NCBI RefSeq assembly: GCF_000427095.1
Contig: NC_021487.1
Location: 2,563,325-2,627,324, forward strand
Length of the DNA stretch: 64,000 nt
Direction: 5' to 3'
From: Chthonomonas calidirosea T49
GTDB taxonomy: Bacteria; Armatimonadota; Chthonomonadetes; Chthonomonadales; Chthonomonadaceae
Shown: positions 1 to 54,764 of the stretch, piece by piece
Numbering within the stretch: position 1 is the first letter of the stretch
How the letters are laid out: each line of letters opens with the position of its first letter
Notes under the pieces: model-generated
What the model was told of the DNA's origin: nothing
The model's input: only the letters and a program-made list of their open reading frames with translations
Database searches by the model: none
Translations under genes and position numbers: made by a program

Positions 1-2243
1 CCATCCTTCGGACGAGGCTCGGCGCCGTGGTCGTTTGGCAGGTGGAAGTAGAGGAAACGAGGCATGCGGGCAGGGTCGTCAAAGCCATTGGCCTTCCAAT
101 CCGCCAAAAACTGATCAACACGGTACTGGTCGGGAATGTTGAGGTTAAACTGCGGGTAGGTGCGACACGTGTTGGCAAAGAGGGGAGCGGGCATGGGAAT
201 GTTGACGGTCTCGATGGCCCCTGTGGGCTTTTCCCCAGCGTCTTCCTCGACACCGGCAAACTCAAATCCCTCTCCGTAGTTGCGGAAGGGCACATGATGA
301 CGCGCTAAGTTGTCCCAAATGCTGCCGGCCTCCAAGTAGTCTTCTGGAGCCAACGAGGCGTTGCTTCCAAAAAGAGCACGTCGGCCAACCTCGTCCAGCC
401 CAAACGTGCTGTGCCCCCCATAGGCTTGCACGTAGTTAGTGGCCATCCAGGGGTTAGGATAGACGCCTACGAGCCAGCGATGTCCGTCGGCGGAGACATC
501 GCCGTCCGTGTAAAAGTTATCTGAAAGAGCGAAGCGCCGTGCGAGGGCGAGATGGTTTGGCATGACAATCACGTCAGGATAAGGGCCGTAGCGCGTCGGA
601 GCTCCAAAACGAGCCAGCTCTTGGAGGCCGTTAACGTTGGGAAGCGCCCCGAAAACCTCATCGAAAGTGCGATTCTCTTTTACAATCATCACCACATACT
701 TGATGTGGCTACGTAGCTGCGTAAGCGAGGGGAGAGCGGTGGCTTCCGGTGATGTGTGAGGCAACAGGCCATTGTTCTCGAGAACACGATGGGTATAGGC
801 CGTTAGTTCAGAGTCGGGTGGGAGTGAGATGCGCTCGATGACTCCTTGCAACAGATTGCCCACATAAGTTCCCTCTGGGCCCTCATGAAAGTTAGGACCA
901 GCGTTCGGGCCGGAGCCAAAGCCTTTTGAGCAGGCCACAAAAAGCGTTTTGCCATCTCCAGAGATCTGCAGTTTCGCCGGCCACCAGGCCACGGGGAGAT
1001 GGCCAAGCACCCGCCCTGTGTGGGCATCGAGAATACCCACCGCGTTGATTCCCGTTTCGGCCACGTAGAGCCGATTCTCATCTGGAGAGAGCGCGAGACC
1101 AAAGGGCATTACGCCGCGCCATCGAGCTGTAGCTGGCGTAAGCGTAATAAGCGTAGACCAGAGCCGTTTGCCGTTAGAGACATCGAACGCCTGCACCATA
1201 TCGTTGTTGGCATTAGAGACGAAGATGCGATTTTCGGTGGTCACCACCGCGCTCGGGGCGCTGCCGCCCACAGCAGGGAAGCCTTGTGGGGTCATTTGTC
1301 CGACAAGCCAGCCCGTCTTTATTTTTTGGACCACATGAGCGGTCGGAGGATTAGACACATCGAAACCCCAAACGCTGAAGCTTTCAGGCACATTGGGGTT
1401 GCCAAGCCCCGGTATAAAACGTCCCTCTATCTTGACGCCATCGCGCGCCGCTTTCGAGCCGAAAGCGAAGGGTGGAAAAGGCAGGCCGCGATGTCCATTG
1501 GCGGCTTCGGGGATGGGACTATAGGCAAACATACCTACGTTTACCACCCAGAGACGATCGCCTTTTGGGGTAAGGGCCAATCCAAAAGGATAGCGCCCCG
1601 TGGGCACGGAATGAAGGGCCTTACCGGTCGCTACGTCCATCACCACGAGACGAAAGTTGGCCTGGTCTACCACGTAAAGATAGCGGCCGTTTGGACTCAG
1701 GGCTATGTCACCGGCATAGCTATGCCGCCACTCATGTCCATCTGTGGGGCCGTCAAGATTCCAGCTCGACGCCAGCTGTTGTGTGCGAAGGTTGTATCGG
1801 AGGATGTTTCCCCTATCTCCGCCGGCCGCGTAGAGCCAGTCGCCGTCTGGGCTGAAGGCCAAGCCCATAAAAGCATCTTGGACAGGGACGGTATGATGTA
1901 TCGCAAGGCTCGTTTGAGGCCGTTCAAAGATTTCGAGCGTGAAAGGTCCTGTGCCGCTGCAGGAGGCAACCAGGAGATCTCCATCGGAGCGGAGGCAAAG
2001 CCCGTAGGGGTGTGGAGCAACGAGAGCCGTTTGCCCTATGGGGGTTATGAGGCGGCCGTTAGGCAAGATCGAGGTTCCGTTTGGGTTACGAAGGGCTGGG
2101 CGGTCCCCCGCGGGCGCCCTATAGTCCTCCAGAGCAAAAGTGGCTCTTTGTGCTCTCTGTGATCCGGGCCATGAAAATCCAAAAAAGCAGATCGTCCCAC
2201 CCGCTAACAGTCCTGTTAGCCCTGCAAGCACCCTTTTATTCAT
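1..2243 (-). CDS. YVTN beta-propeller / phosphoesterase (alkaline phosphatase-like) fusion protein, C-terminus beyond window
   Basis: The minus-strand frame opens at an ATG at 2243 and stays open to base 1, so about 747 N-terminal residues are seen and the end is missing. It begins MNKRVLAGLTGLLAGG, a signal peptide or membrane anchor. Residues about 60-450 form WD/YVTN-like propeller repeats (phrases such as LAFSPDGDWLYAAGG, ALSPNGRYLYVVD, LALSPDENRLYVAE). Then VVMIVKENRTFDEVFG marks the start of a PF04185-type phosphoesterase domain, followed by a metal-site-like SDNFYTDGDVSADGH stretch. Proteins of this architecture are annotated as bifunctional YVTN repeat/alkaline phosphatase family proteins; the natural substrate is unknown. 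It lies 39 bases after a small lipoprotein gene and downstream of a prepilin-like gene with a Pho-box-like operator, which would fit a phosphate-scavenging role (inference). Confidence 0.85.
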   Translation of the reverse strand, partial: MNKRVLAGLTGLLAGGTICFFGFSWPGSQRAQRATFALEDYRAPAGDRPALRNPNGTSILPNGRLITPIGQTALVAPHPYGLCLRSDGDLLVASCSGTGPFTLEIFERPQTSLAIHHTVPVQDAFMGLAFSPDGDWLYAAGGDRGNILRYNLRTQQLASSWNLDGPTDGHEWRHSYAGDIALSPNGRYLYVVDQANFRLVVMDVATGKALHSVPTGRYPFGLALTPKGDRLWVVNVGMFAYSPIPEAANGHRGLPFPPFAFGSKAARDGVKIEGRFIPGLGNPNVPESFSVWGFDVSNPPTAHVVQKIKTGWLVGQMTPQGFPAVGGSAPSAVVTTENRIFVSNANNDMVQAFDVSNGKRLWSTLITLTPATARWRGVMPFGLALSPDENRLYVAETGINAVGILDAHTGRVLGHLPVAWWPAKLQISGDGKTLFVACSKGFGSGPNAGPNFHEGPEGTYVGNLLQGVIERISLPPDSELTAYTHRVLENNGLLPHTSPEATALPSLTQLRSHIKYVVMIVKENRTFDEVFGALPNVNGLQELARFGAPTRYGPYPDVIVMPNHLALARRFALSDNFYTDGDVSADGHRWLVGVYPNPWMATNYVQAYGGHSTFGLDEVGRRALFGSNASLAPEDYLEAGSIWDNLARHHVPFRNYGEGFEFAGVEEDAGEKPTGAIETVNIPMPAPLFANTCRTYPQFNLNIPDQYRVDQFLADWKANGFDDPARMPRFLYFHLPNDHGAEPRPKD

Positions 2244-2282: not shown

Positions 2283-2480
2283 CTATTTCGGCCCCTGGCC
2301 TCGTTTCAGTATATCTGTTTTACCAAGGTCTTGATTAGGCAGACGGGCTGGTGGCGCTGTTGTGGCGTTTGGCGATTGCGGTGGCTCATCTCTATGGCAA
2401 CCAGGTAAAGCGTAAGCACCAAACAGCACAGGAAGCAGCAGCAAGAGGGCGCGTTTGAACCGATTGTCTCGGTAGCGCAT
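2283..2480 (-). CDS. Small lipoprotein, function unknown
   Basis: A 65-residue product starting MRYRDNRFKRALLLLLP. A positively charged N-terminus and a hydrophobic stretch are followed by ALPGC, a lipobox, so the mature protein would be an acylated peptide of about 40 residues rich in Pro, Ala and charged residues. I chose the ATG at 2480 because AAGGAGAG lies just upstream; the frame could open further upstream, but that part would run through the terminator hairpin of the preceding gene. It sits between a prepilin-like gene and a secreted phosphoesterase on the same strand. No family recognised. Confidence 0.6.
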   Translation of the reverse strand: MRYRDNRFKRALLLLLPVLFGAYALPGCHRDEPPQSPNATTAPPARLPNQDLGKTDILKRGQGPK

Positions 2481-2500: not shown

Positions 2501-2539
2501 AAAAAAGGCCGCTATCTCCGCGTAAGCGGAGATAGCGGC
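2501..2539 (-). terminator. Intrinsic terminator after the prepilin-like gene
   Basis: A perfect 13-bp stem (2508-2520 with 2527-2539, arm GCCGCTATCTCCG) has a 6-base loop and is followed on the minus strand by six T residues (2506-2501). It lies between the prepilin stop at 2555 and the lipoprotein start at 2480. It would end or attenuate transcription before the lipoprotein and phosphoesterase genes. Confidence 0.85.
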
Positions 2540-2554
2540 GCAACAGCGTAGGGG

Positions 2555-3376
2555 CTAGGGGGAATGGGAAACGCCATCCCAAGTGGCGCTAAACCAGTAA
2601 CGATTGGGCACGACGGCGGGGGTGGTGACGCCCACATTGTAGGGGTCTACATAGGTGAGGTTGACCTTGAACCACTTCACGTGGCCGTCGGAAAAAGCGA
2701 AGTCGTTCCCGCCTTGATGGCGTGCACCGGTAGGCAGGTCGGAGTTCCAGCCGCTCGACGGGTTGCATCGCGGGTCGAACACCGCCGTATAGAGCGTTTG
2801 GCGGGGCGTGTCGCCGGTATCGCCCAGGAAAATAAATTGCGCTGGGAAGTTTACGGCGGCCAGGGAGCGGCCGGGCAATGTATTGGAACCTGTATCGGGC
2901 AGAACACAGCCGTCGCCTTGAAACCAAAGGCTATGCGGATTATCATGAGGCCCATAGCCGCTGCTCCAGTTGTAGCCGTAGCCCCAAACATGCTGGGTGC
3001 CTGTGCCCGGATTGCAGAAGTCCCCACTGGCCGGCACAAGCCGTTGACGGTCGGGACAGAAGAAGACATCGAAGTTCTTCACGTAGGGCTGAATGATCAC
3101 CACAATGTCGTTGTAGACCCAGGTGTCGGTTCCAAAGGGAATACCGGGCTGAGGCGGATAGCCGTTGCCGGTGACACAGGGGAAGGTCTCGTCGTAGTCT
3201 TGGGTGTACATTAGAACGCCTGTGGCGAGTTGTTTGAGATTAGAGACGCAAGAGGCTTTACGGGCGTCCTCGCGAGCTTGGGCGAAGACGGGAAACAGAA
3301 TAGCTGCAAGTATCGCTATAATAGCGATAACCACAAGCAGCTCAATGAGCGTAAACGCTCGGTTCCTGAAATTCAT
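2555..3376 (-). CDS. Prepilin-type N-terminal cleavage/methylation protein (DUF1559, H-X9-DG type)
   Basis: A 273-residue protein beginning [19 protein letters not shown], the class III prepilin signal: a short basic leader, FTLIEL with Glu at +5, then a hydrophobic helix. The predicted -1 residue is Ala rather than the commoner Gly. The C-terminal part has [18 protein letters not shown], which contains the H-X9-DG signature of DUF1559 proteins. These are type II-secretion or type IV pilin-like proteins that are numerous in Planctomycetes and Armatimonadota; their individual roles are unknown. A strong ribosome site (AAAGGAGAG) precedes the start. Its promoter region carries four TTAA repeats at 11-base spacing, suggesting control by a PhoB/PhoP-type regulator. 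A terminator follows. Confidence 0.88.
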
Positions 3377-3447
3377 TTTCTTAGCTCTCCTTTCGAGGGG
3401 TTTTGTCTACCTTAATGCGATTCGAGTCCACCTCTCTTCCCCTTATG

Positions 3448-3506
3448 CTTATAGAATACTGGGTGAAAATTAAGGCCATGTTAAGTCAGAATTAAATTTT
3501 GGTTAA
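3448..3506 (-). promoter_or_regulatory. Pho-box-like operator plus promoter
   Basis: On the minus strand TTAA occurs at 3506-3503, 3495-3492, 3484-3481 and 3473-3470, four copies at exactly 11-base intervals, extending to TTAACC, TTAATT, TTAACA and TTAATT. This is the layout of PhoP/PhoB/SphR boxes, tandem direct repeats on one helix face. A -10-like TATAAG lies at 3453-3448, about 9 bases after the last repeat unit, where activated pho promoters place it, and no good -35 is seen. It precedes the prepilin-like gene by about 70 bases. Confidence 0.65.
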
Positions 3507-47242: not shown

Positions 47243-49048
47243 ATGCGAAAAGATCGCGACCAACGTAGCTTTTCCGACAACGACGACTACGCAGAAAACG
47301 ACCTCAATGAGAACGAAGGCTCTGGCGAGCTGCAGATTCGGGCGCTCTGGTTACTCGACGAGATCATCCGCATGACGCCGCGCAACGATGCGCGAATGGG
47401 CTATCTTTTGGCGTTACGCGAGCAGTTGGTCTCCGATGAGGAGGCGATGGAGCAGGCCAAGAAGGTGATCGCCGAATTCGAGGAGGCCTACAACAAGCTC
47501 ACTTCGCCCGCAAACCGCATCGCTGTGTTTTTGGGGAAAGTGGATCCGGAGGAACCGAGGCCTAAAGCGCGCCGCCGCCAGGACGCAATGGAGGCAGGAA
47601 AGAGCGGCCAAGAAGAAAAGACGGATTTGGTGGTGCGTATCGCGATTGGAGATCAAGAATACATTGCCAACGTAGACCCCAAACTGGAAAAGACCGACTT
47701 TAAGGTGGGCACCCAGGTGAAAGTGAACGAGGCCTTCGCCGTTATTGGAGACCTGGGATATGCCAAAGGTGGCCCCATTGTAAAGGTCAGCGAGGTGCTT
47801 GAAGATGGGCGTTTGCGTGTCTCTATGGATGCTCAGGGGTTGCAATCGCGTGTGGTCTATCGCAGCGACGATCTGTTGCACGAGCCGTTGAAGCCCGGAT
47901 CAGAGGTGCGCATGGAGCCTAACTTCAAAGTCGCGTTGGAGCACTTCCCCGCTCGCGAAACAACGGACTACTACCTTGAGGAGGTACCTGAGCTACCTTG
48001 GAGCAAGATCGGGGGCCAGGAAGAGGCTATAGGGGTTATCAAAGACGCCATTGAGATGCCGCTTCTCTACCCGGAACTGTTCACACGTTTTGGCAAGCGG
48101 CCGCCCAAAGGTATTCTGCTCTACGGTCCACCGGGCTGCGGTAAAACCCTTATAGGGAAAGCAACGGCCTATAACCTCACAAAGGAGTACAGCAAGCGCC
48201 AGGGCAAAGAGGTTAAAGAGTACTTTATGTACATCAACGGCCCCAAAATCCTCAACATGTGGCTCGGTGAGTCGGAACGACAGGTGCGAGAGATTTTCGC
48301 GCAGGCGCGAGAGAAGGCCAAAGAGGGACGCCTTGTGTTTATCTTTATTGATGAGGCCGAATCGCTATTACGAACGCGAAGCAGTGGCCGCTACCTCAAC
48401 ATCTCTAACACCCTCGTCCCTCAGTTCTGTGCGGAGATGGACGGTCTGGTAAGCCTGCAAAACGTGGTGGTGATGCTTACCTCCAACCGACCCGACTACA
48501 TAGACCCCGCTGTGCTACGCCCCGAACGCATTGACCGTAAGGTTAAGGTGGCCCGACCGGATCGGCGGGCTGCACGCGACATCTATCGAATCTATTTAAG
48601 CGACGTGCCCTTGGATCCGGCCCTCATACGAGAGCATAAAGGGGACGTAGAGGCGGCTCTGGATGAGCTGCTCGACCTCGCCACCGATTACACCTTCCGA
48701 ACGGATCCGGAGATGGAGTTTTTGGAGGTCTATCTGCGCAACGGCGGTACGGAGACTCTCTATTGGAAAGACCTTCTAAGTGGCGCGCTGATCAAATCGG
48801 TGGTGGAGCGCGCAAAGGACTTTGCCATACGGCGATGCATCGTCAACAACACCTCAGATGAGGGCATTGGAATTGACGACATTCAGAAGGCTCTACGCAT
48901 CGAGTTCCGCGAGAACGAAATTTTCCCGAAGGGCGATTCGTTAGAAGATTGGTTGAAGCTGCTCGACTACGAGCCAGAGAACGTGGCGACCATTCGCCCC
49001 ATCCGTGCCAGGAAAGGCACGCCGCACTCTCAGCACAACATCATCTAA
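47243..49048 (+). CDS. mpa: Proteasome-associated AAA+ ATPase (Mpa/ARC)
   Basis: 601 residues. Unfolds tagged proteins and feeds them to the 20S core. N-terminal coiled coil (residues about 28-88), then OB-type interdomain strands (about 125-235), and an AAA+ module: Walker A GPPGCGKTLIGKA (295-302 core), Walker B LVFIFIDEAE and a second-region-of-homology RPERIDRKVKVARPDR. The C-terminus ends SQHNII, so the penultimate Tyr of the QYL-type docking motif in Mpa is absent. First gene of the proteasome operon, 28 bases ahead of dop. GGAG precedes the ATG by 12 bases. Confidence 0.95.
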   Translation: MRKDRDQRSFSDNDDYAENDLNENEGSGELQIRALWLLDEIIRMTPRNDARMGYLLALREQLVSDEEAMEQAKKVIAEFEEAYNKLTSPANRIAVFLGKVDPEEPRPKARRRQDAMEAGKSGQEEKTDLVVRIAIGDQEYIANVDPKLEKTDFKVGTQVKVNEAFAVIGDLGYAKGGPIVKVSEVLEDGRLRVSMDAQGLQSRVVYRSDDLLHEPLKPGSEVRMEPNFKVALEHFPARETTDYYLEEVPELPWSKIGGQEEAIGVIKDAIEMPLLYPELFTRFGKRPPKGILLYGPPGCGKTLIGKATAYNLTKEYSKRQGKEVKEYFMYINGPKILNMWLGESERQVREIFAQAREKAKEGRLVFIFIDEAESLLRTRSSGRYLNISNTLVPQFCAEMDGLVSLQNVVVMLTSNRPDYIDPAVLRPERIDRKVKVARPDRRAARDIYRIYLSDVPLDPALIREHKGDVEAALDELLDLATDYTFRTDPEMEFLEVYLRNGGTETLYWKDLLSGALIKSVVERAKDFAIRRCIVNNTSDEGIGIDDIQKALRIEFRENEIFPKGDSLEDWLKLLDYEPENVATIRPIRARKGTPHSQHNII

Positions 49049-49075
49049 GGGATGTAACAACTTAGGAAGTTAGTC

Positions 49076-50599
49076 ATGAACCGACTGTTCGGCATCGAGA
49101 CGGAATACGGCATTGTGGTGGAGGGGCTAAACACGGGCGATTGGCTTACCGAAAGTATGGCCGTGGTCCGCAGCTGTGAAGGGCCGTGGGTGAGCGGTTG
49201 GAACTACCGGGGAGAGGACCCTCGGCGTGATATGCGCGGTTTTACGGTGCAAAACCTCTCCACAAACCCTGACGATGCCCAATTTGACCCTCCCGGTGGT
49301 CCCACAATGAGCCGCGAGGAGGAGCGCAGCGATAGGGTGTTGCCCAATGGGGCGCGGCTCTATAACGATCATGGCCACCCAGAATACTCCACACCGGAGT
49401 GCCGCTCCCTTTGGGACCTCGTGGCGCACGATCGTGCCGGAGAGCGCATTGTGTTGGCTGCAGCCCGTCGCCGCGCTGCGGAGACCGGCCGAGCGGTTAC
49501 GATCTACAAAAACAACACCGATTTCCATGGAGCCAGCTATGGCACCCATGAGTGCTATCTTATGCGGCGCGATGTGCCCACCGAGACCCTTATTCTCATG
49601 CTTCTGCCCTTCTTCGCCTCACGCTGCATCTACGCCGGAGCCGGCAAAGCGGGGGTAGAAAACAACGGTTTAGGGCGCTCCGATCTCTTCCAGCTTTCCC
49701 AGCGTGCCGATTTCTTCTCCGTGGAGGCGAGCGTAGATACCCTGCATAATCGCCCTTTGGTCAACACGCGCGACGAGCCGCACGCAACCCCGCGAACCTA
49801 TCGGCGTCTCCATGTGATCTGTGGGGATGCCAACATGAGCGAGTATGCCACGGCATTAAAGGTGGGCACTACCTGCTTAGTTTTGTCGTTGTTGGAGCAG
49901 GGAAGGCAACCCCCCTTGCGTTTGGCAAACCCAGTACAGGCCGCTAAGGCCATCTCGCGTGATATCACTCTGAAACGCACCGTAGAAAGGGCCGATGGAA
50001 AGCCGCCAATTACGGCGTTGGAGATTCAGCGGCTCTACCTCGCCGAAGCGCAAAAATACCTGCAAAACAGCGATGAAGAGACCGACTGGGTGCTCACCGA
50101 ATGGCAGCAGATTCTCGACGATCTGGAAAAAGACCCCCTTATGGCCGCCGACCGGTTGGATTGGGTCGCGAAGTATCAGCTTCTGGAACCGTTTCGCCAG
50201 GCAGAGGGGCTGAAATGGAACGATCCGCACATGCAAAGCCTTGATCTTGCCTATCACAACATAGACCCGGAGGAGGGGCTTTACTATGGTCTTGAACAGG
50301 CCGGGCAGATGTGCACCCTGGTAACGGAGACGCGTATTCAGGCGGCCATGTCGTGTCCCCCCATAGATACACGAGCCGCCCTACGTGGGCTGTTTGTACA
50401 GCGCTTCGCCTCAGCCGTGCGAAGCATTGGGTGGAATGGGGTGCTGTTTCGGTATAACGACGAGGACTATCTTTTCGATATGAACCCATTGGTTGAGGAG
50501 AACGTGCGGCTCCTCAACGAGGAGTTTGCCACGGCACGCACCTTAGAGGATGTCATCGCTCTCCTTCAAAGCCAACCCGGTGCGGAGGAGACCGTATAA
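49076..50599 (+). CDS. dop: Dop-like depupylase / deamidase of the UBact system
   Basis: 507 residues, of the carboxylate-amine ligase family shared with PafA and glutamine synthetase. LFGIETEYGIVVE starts the ATP/Mg site (Glu8), and NGARLYNDHGHPEYS carries Asp98, the nucleophile position in Dop. Residues about 40-85 (WNYRGEDPRRDMRGFTVQ) match the Dop-specific loop that PafA lacks, which is why I call this the depupylase rather than a second ligase. KNNTDFHGASYGTHECYL and QLSQRADFFSVE follow. It would remove the tag from targets. Its upstream neighbour is mpa, downstream is the tag gene. Confidence 0.92.
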   Translation: MNRLFGIETEYGIVVEGLNTGDWLTESMAVVRSCEGPWVSGWNYRGEDPRRDMRGFTVQNLSTNPDDAQFDPPGGPTMSREEERSDRVLPNGARLYNDHGHPEYSTPECRSLWDLVAHDRAGERIVLAAARRRAAETGRAVTIYKNNTDFHGASYGTHECYLMRRDVPTETLILMLLPFFASRCIYAGAGKAGVENNGLGRSDLFQLSQRADFFSVEASVDTLHNRPLVNTRDEPHATPRTYRRLHVICGDANMSEYATALKVGTTCLVLSLLEQGRQPPLRLANPVQAAKAISRDITLKRTVERADGKPPITALEIQRLYLAEAQKYLQNSDEETDWVLTEWQQILDDLEKDPLMAADRLDWVAKYQLLEPFRQAEGLKWNDPHMQSLDLAYHNIDPEEGLYYGLEQAGQMCTLVTETRIQAAMSCPPIDTRAALRGLFVQRFASAVRSIGWNGVLFRYNDEDYLFDMNPLVEENVRLLNEEFATARTLEDVIALLQSQPGAEETV

Positions 50600-50653
50600 A
50601 ACATGTAGAACGATACCGAAGAGAAAGCGCCAAGCAACGAAGGAGCAAGAACC

Positions 50654-50848
50654 ATGAGCGATCTATTTCGTATGGAAGAGCGACGGCAGATGCCTATACT
50701 GCCTACAGAGCCCGCCCGTAAAGAGGGGGATGGGGGCGGCCCTCAGAAGCCGGATGTGAAACGGCCGGATACCAGCGATCTGCTGCGCCGTATGAAGCGT
50801 GTAGATCCCGATGCGGCCCGTCGCTACCGACAACGAAGCGGAGAGTAA
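50654..50848 (+). CDS. UBact, Pup-like ubiquitin-type protein
   Basis: 64 residues. After MSDLFRMEERRQMPILP and a Gly/Asp-rich linker comes KPDVKRPDTSDLLRRMKRV and the end DAARRYRQRSGE. The terminal RQRSGE with final Glu is the signature of UBact, the Pup homologue reported from Gram-negative phyla with proteasomes, including Armatimonadetes; mycobacterial Pup ends GGQ instead. A final Glu can be joined to lysine directly by PafA without deamidation. AAGGAG sits 8 bases before the ATG. It is followed 2 bases later by prcB. Confidence 0.92.
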   Translation: MSDLFRMEERRQMPILPTEPARKEGDGGGPQKPDVKRPDTSDLLRRMKRVDPDAARRYRQRSGE

Positions 50849-50850
50849 CG

Positions 50851-51654
50851 TTGTTTGAACCGGCAGCAGATCTTTGGACCCTCTTGGAGCGGAGCGGTCA
50901 TCCTCTAACGCGCCCGCTGACCGCTCCGTCTTTCAAAGGGGATTCGCGGGACACACAGGCGCTTACGGAGGTACACGGCACGACGGTGATCGCGGTAAAG
51001 TTCGATCGTGGCGTGATCAACGTGGGAGACCGCCGCGCTACCGCCAACTTTGCCGTAATGTACGATCGCGCCGAAAAGGTGTTGGCCGTTGATGACTATA
51101 CTCTGCTTGCCATATCCGGCTCTTATGCACGTGCAATGGAGGTGGTACGCTATCTGAGAACGGCCTTTAAGCTCTACGAGCGTACCTATCTCCAACCGAT
51201 GAGCCTAGAGGGCAAACTGGCTGAACTGGCCAAGGTAGTGCGGGCAGGCCTGCCGGAGGCTTTGCAAGGTATCGGTGGATTCCTGCCCCTGCTAAGTATC
51301 TACGACCGTGAGTTGGAGGAGGGGCGCATCTTCTTTTACGACGGCATGGGCGCCCGGTTCGAGAGCGCCGAGTTCGGTGCAGCTGGCAGCGGTTCGCTGC
51401 AGATTCGAGGAGTTTTTGACTATATCGTTAAAACCAAAAAACCCTTTCATCTGATGACACGAGAAGAGGCGCTCAGGGAGGCCCTGCTGCTGCTCGACAT
51501 CGCCGCCGATCTCGACACGGCTACAGGGGGTTGGTCTAAAGTGCTTCCGCTGGCCAAAACGATCACCGCCGAAGGCATAGAGGATGTGCCCGAGGAGGAG
51601 CTGCGTGCCTTGGTAGAGAGCATCGAGACAACCACCAGCGCGCACACTCCATGA
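50851..51654 (+). CDS. prcB: Proteasome beta subunit
   Basis: 267 residues. A 43-residue propeptide ends at HG, and cleavage would expose Thr44 in GTTVIAVKF, the N-terminal nucleophile. NVGDRRATANFAVMYDRAEKV and LLAISGSYARAMEVV are Ntn-fold core phrases of beta subunits. The start is TTG at 50851, 2 bases after the ubact stop, with GGAGAG over the end of that gene, so the tag and the protease subunit are translated as a pair. The C-terminal 25 residues are acidic and extra. Confidence 0.93.
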   Translation: MFEPAADLWTLLERSGHPLTRPLTAPSFKGDSRDTQALTEVHGTTVIAVKFDRGVINVGDRRATANFAVMYDRAEKVLAVDDYTLLAISGSYARAMEVVRYLRTAFKLYERTYLQPMSLEGKLAELAKVVRAGLPEALQGIGGFLPLLSIYDRELEEGRIFFYDGMGARFESAEFGAAGSGSLQIRGVFDYIVKTKKPFHLMTREEALREALLLLDIAADLDTATGGWSKVLPLAKTITAEGIEDVPEEELRALVESIETTTSAHTP

Positions 51655-51679
51655 TAAGATTCGAAATTTCGAGGTTTTT

Positions 51680-52477
51680 ATGTACACACCTTTCGACATT
51701 AACGAGGCCGTCGCTCAACGTCGTGAATTTGTAGAGGAGGGGCTGCGCACGGGAAGCCCAGTGGTGGGGCTTCGCTATAAAGGCGGACTCTTGCTTTTCA
51801 CTGTGCGTAGAGCCCAGCGTAAGATCTATGAGATATACGACCGACAGATGTTCTCGGCCATAGGCCGCCAGTCCGACATCGAAAATGTGCGTCTAGCCGC
51901 TATTCAAACCGCCCATCAAGAGGGTTTTGAGCGTAGCCCAGACGATGTCTCCTTGCACCGCCTCGTGGGCTTTGCGCTCAGCCCTACCCTAAAACGCGCC
52001 TTTGGTGACCCCATGTATATCCCCATCGTGATTCGAGCTCTCTTTGCCGAACTTGGCAAATCGGCCAAAAACGATGTGTTTGTAACACTAAACTACGATG
52101 GGGAGTATCGTCAAACACAGGACGTCGCCGTCATCGCGGGCACCCAGATCGCTGAAGACCGCATGCTGGAACGCCTGGAGGGAACCGATCCGGACCAGAG
52201 CCTGCATGAGGCCTTAGAGAGGGCTTTGCTCGCCTGGGCGGCAGGGATGCGCGAAGCCTTGCGAGGCGGACGCGGCATTAAAACCCGTGAAGAAGAGGAG
52301 GAATCCGAGCGGTTTCGTCTTATCGAAGAGGCCGACTCGGAGAGAGCTTTTCTGCGGGATGAGCTCAAAACCGGTACGATTGAGGCGGCCGTGCTAGAAC
52401 GCGACGTGCGTCGAGAAAGCCGTTTTCGTTTGCTTACGGAAAAGGAGTTCGAGCCTCTACTGCGCGAGTATCGCTAA
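51680..52477 (+). CDS. prcA: Proteasome alpha subunit
   Basis: 265 residues. MYTPFDINEAVAQRREFVEEG is the alpha-subunit gate helix, VGLRYKGGLLLFTVRR the first strands, SDIENVRLAAIQTAHQEGF the H1 helix. No N-terminal Thr is expected because alpha subunits form the gate rings. After the core the protein has a long charged C-terminal helix (from about residue 200, TREEEEESERFRLIEEADSE). Coupled to pafA, whose ATG is one base past the stop. The ribosome site (GAGG) is 9 bases from the ATG. Confidence 0.92.
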   Translation: MYTPFDINEAVAQRREFVEEGLRTGSPVVGLRYKGGLLLFTVRRAQRKIYEIYDRQMFSAIGRQSDIENVRLAAIQTAHQEGFERSPDDVSLHRLVGFALSPTLKRAFGDPMYIPIVIRALFAELGKSAKNDVFVTLNYDGEYRQTQDVAVIAGTQIAEDRMLERLEGTDPDQSLHEALERALLAWAAGMREALRGGRGIKTREEEEESERFRLIEEADSERAFLRDELKTGTIEAAVLERDVRRESRFRLLTEKEFEPLLREYR

Positions 52478-52478
52478 A

Positions 52479-53951
52479 ATGGAAAAACGAATTTTTGGCA
52501 TCGAAACCGAGTTTGGTTGCATGGTGCGAGATCCTTCAGTTGGCACACCTGAAGAGATCGTTGAGCAGGTGAAAGACTATGCCTTCTACGACAGGCGCTA
52601 TGGGCTTATTGACCTTCACGCACGTGACTATGCCTTTGAACCGGCCCGCGCCGGAGGTTTTCTGCGCAACGGAGGTCGCCTTTACATAGATGCCGTCGGT
52701 AGTCATGAAGAGTATGCCACCCCTGAATGCTGTGATCTGCTAGACCTCGTGCGCTACGATAGGGCTGGGCGTATTCTGCTGTCGCGCTTATTGAAAGACC
52801 TGCAGCTGAGCCCAGTGGTTAGCTTTCATAACAACAGCATAGACCACTTCGGTGGGCATACCTTCGGTTGCCACGAAAACTACCTGGTGCAGCTCGAAGA
52901 TCGCTTCTTTACCGATGCTCTATCGAGCCTGTTGCCGTTTCTGGTAACGCGCCAAATTTTTGCTGGTGTTGGGCGTGTGGGCGGACACCGGCTAACTCGC
53001 CCCTCTAGCAAAAACAACATCATGACTCTCAGCGAGCATGAGGTAGACTACGTTTGGGTCTCCAACTTCTATGGGGTCGAGATAGACCCCACGGTCAATT
53101 TTCAGCTTTCGCAGCGTGCCGATCACATCGTGAAAACCATCAGCTCGCGCGTCCGCTTTAACAGAGCGATCATCAATCCCAAATGGGATAGCTACTACTC
53201 CTACTCCAACCTGCATCGGCTGCATGTGCTCTTCGGCGAAAGCAACATGAGCGAATATGCCCTGATGTTAAAAGTGGGCACAACCTGTTTGGTGCTTGAC
53301 CTCATCGAGGACGGGATCGCTCCGCCGGATGTGGAGGTGGCCGATCCGTTAGAGACTTTGCGCTCGGTCTCGCGCGATCCCACGATGAAATGGATAGTGC
53401 GTTTACGCAACGGACGCACCATTTCGGCCATTGACCTGCAACGTCGTTATCTTGATGCGGCGAAACGCTACCTTTATCGTCGCGACCCACAAACCGATCT
53501 GGTGCTTAGGGAGTGGGAGACTATTTTGGACGATCTCGAGCGAGACCCACTTTCGACGGCCGACCGCCTCGACTGGGCTGCGAAGTTTGTGCTCTATCGT
53601 CAGTACATGGAAGAGACCGGGGCAAGCTGGCAAGACGACGTGATGCAGAGCCTCGACTTGGAGTATCATAATGCGACACCGGAAGAGGGGCTGTTCTATG
53701 GTTTGGAGCAGGCCGGCCTGATGCGGCGCCTTGTTACTGACGAACAGGTGGAGGAGGCGTTGACCAATCCGCCCGAAAACACGCGCGCCTATGGACGCGG
53801 GCTTATTGTGGCGCAACTATTGGCACATCCGGGGCTGCGTTACGTGATCGATTGGGATGCGATCTATATCGAGCGCAATCGGCAGCTTGACCTGAAAAAT
53901 CCGTTCCACACCTACGAGAAAGAGGCTATGCGCTTCTTACGCGGCGTGTAA
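52479..53951 (+). CDS. pafA: Pup/UBact-protein ligase PafA
   Basis: 490 residues. IFGIETEFGCMV starts the ligase Mg/ATP site; NGGRLYIDAVGSHEEYATPEC carries Asp71 at the catalytic position and lacks the Dop loop seen in the gene at 49076. HNNSIDHFGGHTFGCHENYL, QLSQRADHIVKTIS, RLHVLFGESNMSEYALMLKVG and LDWAAKFVLYRQY (in parts) follow the family pattern. It joins the tag C-terminal Glu to lysines. No ribosome site is near, and the 1-base gap from prcA suggests reinitiation. Confidence 0.93.
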   Translation: MEKRIFGIETEFGCMVRDPSVGTPEEIVEQVKDYAFYDRRYGLIDLHARDYAFEPARAGGFLRNGGRLYIDAVGSHEEYATPECCDLLDLVRYDRAGRILLSRLLKDLQLSPVVSFHNNSIDHFGGHTFGCHENYLVQLEDRFFTDALSSLLPFLVTRQIFAGVGRVGGHRLTRPSSKNNIMTLSEHEVDYVWVSNFYGVEIDPTVNFQLSQRADHIVKTISSRVRFNRAIINPKWDSYYSYSNLHRLHVLFGESNMSEYALMLKVGTTCLVLDLIEDGIAPPDVEVADPLETLRSVSRDPTMKWIVRLRNGRTISAIDLQRRYLDAAKRYLYRRDPQTDLVLREWETILDDLERDPLSTADRLDWAAKFVLYRQYMEETGASWQDDVMQSLDLEYHNATPEEGLFYGLEQAGLMRRLVTDEQVEEALTNPPENTRAYGRGLIVAQLLAHPGLRYVIDWDAIYIERNRQLDLKNPFHTYEKEAMRFLRGV

Positions 53952-53980
53952 GGTTTTGGTGCGCCTACACTCTCTACATT

Positions 53981-54005
53981 TAGGGCGGGCCTAAAACCCG
54001 CCCTA
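53981..54005 (+). terminator. Hairpin after pafA
   Basis: A 9-bp GC-rich stem (TAGGGCGGG with CCCGCCCTA) and 7-base loop lies 30 bases after the pafA stop. No T tract follows, so it may only pause or trim the transcript. Confidence 0.5.
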
Positions 54006-54074
54006 TCATCATGGGGGAACTTAGGAGAAGCCATCGAGTCGTACGAAAGTAAAAAGGAAAAGAGGAACGGCGTT

Positions 54075-54764
54075 ATGATTCCAATGCGTGCTCATTTTGA
54101 GGCCGAGCTGAATAGCCTGCGTGAAACGATGCTGGAGATGGCCACCTGCGCCGACAATATGTTGGCGCAGGCGGTAGAGGCACTGATGAGCGGCAACCTA
54201 GAGCTCGTGCAAAAGGTAATAGCTCAAGACGATACGGTAGACCGCTACGACATTGAGATCGAGAACAAATGTTTACGCCTCATTGCCACGCAACAGCCTG
54301 TGGCTCGCGATCTGCGCACCATTGGAACAGCTTTGAAGGCCATTACCGATGTGGAGCGTATTGGAGACTATGCGGTGGATATCGCAAAGATCGGGCGAAG
54401 GCTGGCGCGTGCTCAGCAGATTTATCGGCCCCTTGTGGACATTCCGCGCTTGGCCCATCTTAGCCGCGTGATGTTACAGGATGCGCTCCAGGCTTTTATT
54501 CATCACGATCTCAACCTCGTTGAGAAAGTTATTCGCGATGACGACGAAGTCGATCGCCTCTACCATGCCATGCGAGAGCGCCTCACCCAAGAGATCGTAG
54601 AGCACCCCTCTTGTGCTCTTTTGGCGCTAAATATTATGTTCGCGGCCAAATATCTCGAACGGGTGAGCGATCATGTGGTGAACATCGCCGAGCGCGTATG
54701 GTTTGTGGAGACCGGCGAACTCAAGCCGGCGCGTGAGTTTCTCAACGAAGAAGATTCACCTTAA
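54075..54764 (+). CDS. phoU: Phosphate signalling protein PhoU
   Basis: 229 residues in two three-helix repeats, each with the E/D-x-x-x-D metal motifs: DDTVDRYDIEIENKCLRLIA and DDDEVDRLYHAMRERLTQEI, joined with TALKAITDVERIGDYAVDIA and AAKYLERVSDHVVNIAERVW. It dampens PhoR/PhoB signalling from the Pst transporter. No pst genes are nearby. It starts in a short leader with GAGGAACGGC. I see no Pho box upstream of it. The neighbouring proteasome operon is upstream on the same strand, separated by a hairpin. Confidence 0.95.
   Translation: MIPMRAHFEAELNSLRETMLEMATCADNMLAQAVEALMSGNLELVQKVIAQDDTVDRYDIEIENKCLRLIATQQPVARDLRTIGTALKAITDVERIGDYAVDIAKIGRRLARAQQIYRPLVDIPRLAHLSRVMLQDALQAFIHHDLNLVEKVIRDDDEVDRLYHAMRERLTQEIVEHPSCALLALNIMFAAKYLERVSDHVVNIAERVWFVETGELKPAREFLNEEDSP

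Follow-up and report, generated by a model that had tools for sequence, protein, structure and literature searches.

The prepilin gene at 2555-3376 is very probably controlled by a Pho box, an array of four TTAA units found in a 64,000-nucleotide window of the Chthonomonas calidirosea T49 chromosome (the whole stretch of DNA that we analysed, positions 2563325-2627324). The array points at the gene, stands at a fixed distance from a -10 hexamer, is of a kind that precedes phosphate genes in this genome and in its relatives, and is retained before prepilin orthologues. To judge from their sequences, relatives across the phylum use the same switch for phosphate-uptake genes, phosphatases, many pilin-like genes and a small RNA.

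The array and its promoter

The preliminary description of this DNA claimed four TTAA repeats at exact 11-base spacing, and we found them as claimed, at 3470, 3481, 3492 and 3503 (Table 1). TTAA is itself a palindrome, and the direction of the array is given by the bases that flank each unit. On the minus strand eight of eight flanking positions are pyrimidines (CTTAACC, TTTAATT, CTTAACA and CTTAATT), versus none of eight on the plus strand, and the array is thus directed toward the prepilin gene, which lies on the minus strand. Read in this direction, the promoter is CTTAACCAAAA TTTAATTCTGA CTTAACATGGC CTTAATTTTCACCCAG TATTCT, followed by AAAGGAGAG and by the ATG at 3376.

We compared this geometry with that of 54 arrays of this genome and its relatives, which were read and oriented by their pyrimidine flanks. 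The consensus of their units is YTTAAYA. In 28 of them a TANNNT hexamer begins exactly 11 nt past the last TTAA, any other offset being seen in 0-6 arrays. TATTCT fits this geometry. The TATAAG at 3448-3453, originally proposed as the -10, had to be abandoned because it is out of register with the 54 arrays. The array thus placed has the build of a Pho box: direct repeats with an 11-nt period (four perfect units, at least two being expected), about 10 nt upstream of a sigma-70-type -10.

Table 1. Features of the window, and small RNA genes and predicted short transcripts behind the same or a similar type of box
Feature	Position	Strand	Basis or remark
Pho box, four direct repeats YTTAAY-N5, 11-bp period	3470..3506	minus	motif and geometry common to 54 arrays
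Pho box units	3503-3506, 3492-3495, 3481-3484, 3470-3473	minus	oriented toward the prepilin gene
-10 hexamer TATTCT	3453..3458	minus	exactly 11 nt after the last TTAA
Shine-Dalgarno-like AAAGGAGAG	3385..3393	minus	8 nt before the ATG; sequence
Prepilin-like protein, 273 aa, DUF1559 (PF07596), DGH C-terminal motif	2555..3376	minus	leader MNFRNRA before FTLIELL
Intercistronic hairpin with T-run, 14-bp stem	2508..2539	minus	between the prepilin and small lipoprotein genes
Small lipoprotein, 65 aa, LPGC lipobox	2283..2480	minus	sequence
Secreted beta-propeller and phosphoesterase protein (PF04185)	3..2243	minus	runs past the left window end; 911 aa in the genome
PhoU, phosphate signalling protein, 229 aa	54075..54764	plus	family match
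Small RNA loci of relatives	L104, L105, L108, L109, L115, L119, L123, L127, L148, L150, L152, L154		always directly behind a Pho box
Predicted short transcripts of the own genome	L017:9990-10130 (about 158,850), L058:1490-1640 (about 154,700)		one on either side of a 16S rRNA gene

Genes behind the arrays

The exact 11-bp four-unit pattern occurs in 22 of 41 genomes, this one included, while a control pattern with 12-bp spacing was found in one place and a backwards control in none. Counting prepilin starts frame by frame, we found a DUF1559 prepilin start within 450 nt downstream of 19 of the 54 oriented arrays. The corresponding counts were zero upstream, zero on the opposite strand and 1/184 in distant windows of the same strand (p = 6e-13). 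Behind ten arrays lies a pst operon, reached in five cases through a porin-like first gene; three precede genes for PhoX, a phytase and a Pit-type phosphate transporter, and eight precede a conserved small RNA. The likeness to PhoP, PhoB and SphR boxes that had been suggested for the array is therefore supported: similar arrays stand near phosphate genes in this genome and in its relatives (pst, PhoX, phytase and Pit), and repeatedly before DUF1559 prepilins.

The motif precedes known phosphate genes of both the genome and its clade. The pst operon of C. calidirosea, which NCBIfam models assign as PstS, a fused PstC-PstA and PstB, has CTTAACATTCTCTTAATATTTTGCGGGTTATAAT in front, with the same type of promoter; its pstS gene is at 3295322. 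The fusion is a 691-aa protein (L055:11008-13083), and a gene for a BON-domain protein (L055:13088-13495) lies between it and pstB. Among 19 pstS genes chosen by HMM, eight have an array scoring at least 14.25 within about 400 nt; three (in this genome, G001 and G011) have two perfect units and a -10, and in three more cases the array stands before a porin gene that precedes pstS. Only one of 90 control genes reached a score of 14, and it was the prepilin gene at 2555-3376 itself. A Pho box followed by an SLH- or other porin-like gene and then by pstS was read at L099, L100, L101, L129 and L135; the pst operon of several relatives thus opens with a putative outer-membrane porin. In a scan of named genomes, where genes were recognised by eye from protein starts and not by model search, Planctomycetota, Elusimicrobia and Ignavibacteria were among the groups in which the same box preceded pst genes, and in Thermocrinis it preceded a PhoX-like gene. 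No Pho box was found before phoU in the window. Directly upstream of phoU we read by eye a proteasome-type cluster, the whole stretch covering 47243-54764, with an ATPase, two Dop/PafA-like ligases and two proteasome-like subunits.

The product of the gene behind the box scores above the gathering thresholds of both PF07963 and PF07596 and carries the invariant motif of 24 protein letters, which makes it a DUF1559 prepilin-like protein. Its score with the GspG model TIGR01710 is 33.2 bits against a cut-off of 88.85; it is pilin-like, and not a GspG. The predicted structure, of moderate confidence, combines a long N-terminal helix with a small alpha/beta head. A structure search with this model gave no global match, the N-terminal helix alone matching solved pilins. 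The gene is followed by the hairpin at 2508-2539, which is either a terminator, an attenuator or a 3'-end stabiliser, and then by the small lipoprotein gene. The PQSPNATTAPPARLP stretch of this lipoprotein is shared, with matching tails, by the small lipoprotein that follows the prepilin orthologues in G001 and G011. Such pairs are frequent in the phylum: a small lipoprotein or one-helix protein follows 39 of 88 DUF1559 genes versus 18 of 342 control genes, and a small protein with a lipobox follows 21 versus 2 of the same sets. We examined 24 prepilin/small-protein gaps and found a strong hairpin in most of them, as a rule lacking a T-run. A DUF1559 prepilin and a small lipoprotein or one-helix protein, with a hairpin between them, thus look like a general two-gene module.

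Whether the phosphoesterase shares a transcript with the prepilin and the lipoprotein is uncertain, because the strong 14-pair hairpin with its T-run follows the prepilin gene; in G001 and G011 the phosphoesterase does not adjoin the prepilin orthologue. The full-length protein is a predicted enzyme, with a PF04185 match of 57.8 bits against a gathering score of 23. Its orthologues have a box directly in front in G027, the clearest case, and weaker two-unit boxes in G001, G003, G008, G011 and G030; in G006, and more weakly in G026, they lie behind a boxed prepilin. To judge by these boxes, their own or those of prepilins before them, the phosphoesterase is probably itself a member of the Pho regulon. 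Elsewhere in the genome (L059:1-1456, at about 1,871,000) another PF04185 phosphoesterase is encoded, which has a two-unit Pho box and a -10 to itself.

The small RNA gene is marked by its core GCTCACTCTCCGAGCGACGATCACCC, by a 5' hairpin whose loop contains CUCUCC, and by a terminator. Of 17 genomes of the same family, 12 have a single copy of it, and it was not found in the 184 other genomes searched. Four of the copies escaped the array search and came to light through the RNA pattern, and a TTAA array stands in front of all four. An Rfam search with the small RNA matched no family. The core GCTCACTCTCCGAGCGACGATCACCC is absent from the genome of C. calidirosea itself, where we predict two short terminated transcripts with CUCUCUCCUA or UUCUCUCCUA, near 154,700 and 158,850. 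The one near 158,850 lies behind a one-mismatch TTAA array and the one near 154,700 behind a two-unit box, and both contain (C/U)UCUCUCCUA. A cobalamin riboswitch (Rfam RF00174) was noted at L017:17237-17376.

Chance, other regulators and other programmes

The core of the repeat is short and contains no base other than A and T, as might be expected of a chance array within an AT-rich intergenic stretch. The window is 56% G+C, and 100 dinucleotide shuffles of it produced no array of even three units. From its TTAA frequency, 5e-5 four-unit arrays are expected in the genome, a single contig of 3.44 Mb, versus three present, and every one of the three lies directly before a DUF1559 prepilin gene. 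A fourth, with one mismatch, precedes another DUF1559 prepilin gene followed by a metallophosphoesterase gene. The array is also kept before orthologues of the prepilin. In G001 and G011 (80-81% identity, orthologues chosen by protein similarity) 15 and 14 of the 16 array bases are conserved, and 14-16 of 16 are found before the best prepilin matches in G002, G003, G004, G006, G008, G010, G015, G027, G028 and G033. There is no array before the best matches in G005, G009 and G013, among others. This conservation refutes chance, to which we assign a negligible probability. Two further one-mismatch arrays, at 2,442,250 and 2,958,872, were dropped as having no sensible gene behind them. The loose two-unit pattern matches nine times in the genome versus four for its backwards control, and single two-unit matches are therefore only leads (a porin-like gene, a small protein of unknown family and the transcript near 154,696).

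If the array is a genuine binding site, its ligand might still be another regulator of the OmpR family answering a signal other than phosphate. Some CtrA-, MtrA- and RpaB-type regulators use TTAA-like repeats one helix turn apart, the motif of CtrA itself being TTAA-N7-TTAA. The genome encodes three OmpR-type regulators, besides three proteins of more than 1000 aa with the same domain. One of the three is followed by a PAS-domain kinase, which lies near 1,898,000 (the L138 pair). Its best NCBIfam match is the PhoB model TIGR02154 (267 bits, cut-off 296), and the kinase is nearest to PnpS and PhoR (best match PnpS, 370 against a cut-off of 400), so that the two form a probable PhoB and PnpS/PhoR pair, although both fall slightly below the equivalog cut-offs. 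E. coli PhoB structures are the best PDB matches of the effector domain, and the recognition helices are near-identical (DERTVDVHIRWLR here versus EDRTVDVHIRRLR in E. coli PhoB). No Pho box was found before this pair. Of the other two regulators, whose nearest families are of the copper/silver and MtrA types, neither has a PhoB-like recognition helix; no CtrA orthologue was found in the genome, none of the OmpR-type regulators having CtrA as its best family. With pst, PhoX, phytase and Pit genes behind the arrays, control by one of these other regulators is very improbable.

A less easily dismissed alternative accepts the box as real and places the prepilin in a wider programme of starvation or envelope remodelling with no special tie to phosphate scavenging, paralogues having been captured more or less randomly by Pho boxes. 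The prepilins are indeed a large family here, of about 43-46 genes, and DUF1559 genes of R. baltica respond to salt, cold and heat (PMC2754498). When we scored the upstream regions of 43 prepilin genes of the genome, four reached at least 16.25 and the rest 13 or less; a fifth gene (2416330) has two perfect units only. The boxed prepilins other than the one at 2555-3376 are those at 176748, 2723310 and 3111709. The box thus marks a subset, 4 of 43 genes and perhaps 5, about 38 of the 43 being without it. On a tree of 65 prepilins the presence of the box changes nine times, hence several gains or losses, but boxed members are clustered, shuffled labels giving 16.6 changes (0/500 shuffles). The prepilin at 2555-3376 falls in a group of nine, eight of them boxed (SH-aLRT 99), although many other branches are poorly supported. 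Random capture also fits poorly with the retention of the box before orthologues in many genera, and with the recurrence of a boxed prepilin followed by a propeller-phosphoesterase in G006, G026 and the loci of G027 and G033. We consider this alternative unlikely, if well short of negligible.

A possible phosphate-responsive pseudopilus and its relation to known systems

The reading that we prefer, control of the prepilin by a Pho box, suggests the following mechanism. When phosphate is scarce, the PhoR/PnpS-like kinase would phosphorylate the PhoB-like response regulator, which would bind where a -35 would otherwise lie, two dimers in tandem covering the four head-to-tail 11-bp units, and bring RNA polymerase to the -10 TATTCT. 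We infer that this regulator is the protein that binds the array, that phosphate limitation is the inducing condition and that transcription reads through the hairpin. Prepilin would then be made in quantity, with less of the small lipoprotein and propeller-phosphoesterase past the intercistronic hairpin. This hairpin may pass only part of transcription, or may protect the prepilin message, so that prepilin would exceed lipoprotein and enzyme; such a role is supported by the frequency of small-protein partner genes and by the strong hairpins in most of the gaps. The prepilin could assemble into a pseudopilus of the envelope, or into a secretion fibre, and so help to expose or release phosphate-scavenging enzymes. 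This purpose, suggested by analogy with phosphate-controlled secretion in Pseudomonas and Caulobacter, is a guess that we hold with somewhat less than even confidence. More tentatively still, the whole may be a phylum-wide envelope programme of phosphate starvation. Dedicated DUF1559 pseudopilins, often with a small lipoprotein or one-helix partner behind a stoichiometry-setting hairpin, would form a fibre or secretion device for phosphatases, and a Pho-induced small RNA would repress translation of other genes through its CUCUCC loop and its GAUCACCC stretch.

A Pho box of this type is of an already known kind; the prepilin regulon and the small RNA appear to be undescribed. In the open-licence literature we found nothing on a Pho regulon of Armatimonadota and nothing linking DUF1559 prepilins to phosphate or to a Pho box. 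PhoB/PhoR and 79 pseudopilin (PulG-type) genes are mentioned for Fimbriimonas, with no connection drawn between them (PMC4072686). Genomes of Armatimonadota and Planctomycetes encode tens of DUF1559 proteins (46 matches in this genome, 74 genes in R. baltica; PMC2754498), a family without an established function. For a defined subset of them, a defined inducer, presumably low phosphate, offers a first handle for a functional test, and the box can serve directly to trace the phosphate regulon of a little-studied phylum, together with a small RNA family beyond the Rfam models.

The closest known counterpart is the Pho box of cyanobacterial SphR, CTTAACCT, with repeats of 8 bp and a 3-bp linker, at least three in tandem (PMC1906773). 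The repeat sequence, the 11-bp period and the head-to-tail arrangement before pst and phosphatase genes are the same. Here, however, the phylum is a different one, the main class behind four-unit arrays is that of DUF1559 prepilins, and the PhoB-like regulator is of its own lineage. The PhoP boxes of Bacillus subtilis are TTAACA-like repeats. They have an 11-nt repeat structure (PMC4415409). These boxes share with ours the type of repeat, the helix-turn period and the position before phosphate genes, and differ in that the spacing is here exactly 11 bp, with the -10 fixed 11 nt past the last TTAA, and in the content of the regulon. In the PhoB box of E. coli, at least two 11-nt units lie some 10 bp ahead of the -10 (PMC4415409, PMC1906773). 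Both systems have tandem 11-nt units where a -35 would be, and their recognition helices are near-identical, whereas the half-site is CTGTCAT there and CTTAAC here, where there are often four units.

As for the secretion of phosphate-scavenging enzymes, Pseudomonas aeruginosa has the Hxc type II secretion system with LapA, a case of phosphate-controlled secretion. ElpS of Caulobacter crescentus is likewise linked to secretion under phosphate starvation (PMC2996285). As in these systems, a secretion or envelope apparatus would here be tied to phosphate starvation, together with a phosphatase and a lipoprotein. We noticed no secretion ATPase or secretin in the prepilin loci that we read. A whole secretion system is at work in those bacteria, whereas here the prepilins occur singly, as members of a large family of paralogues, and often together with a small lipoprotein or one-helix protein.
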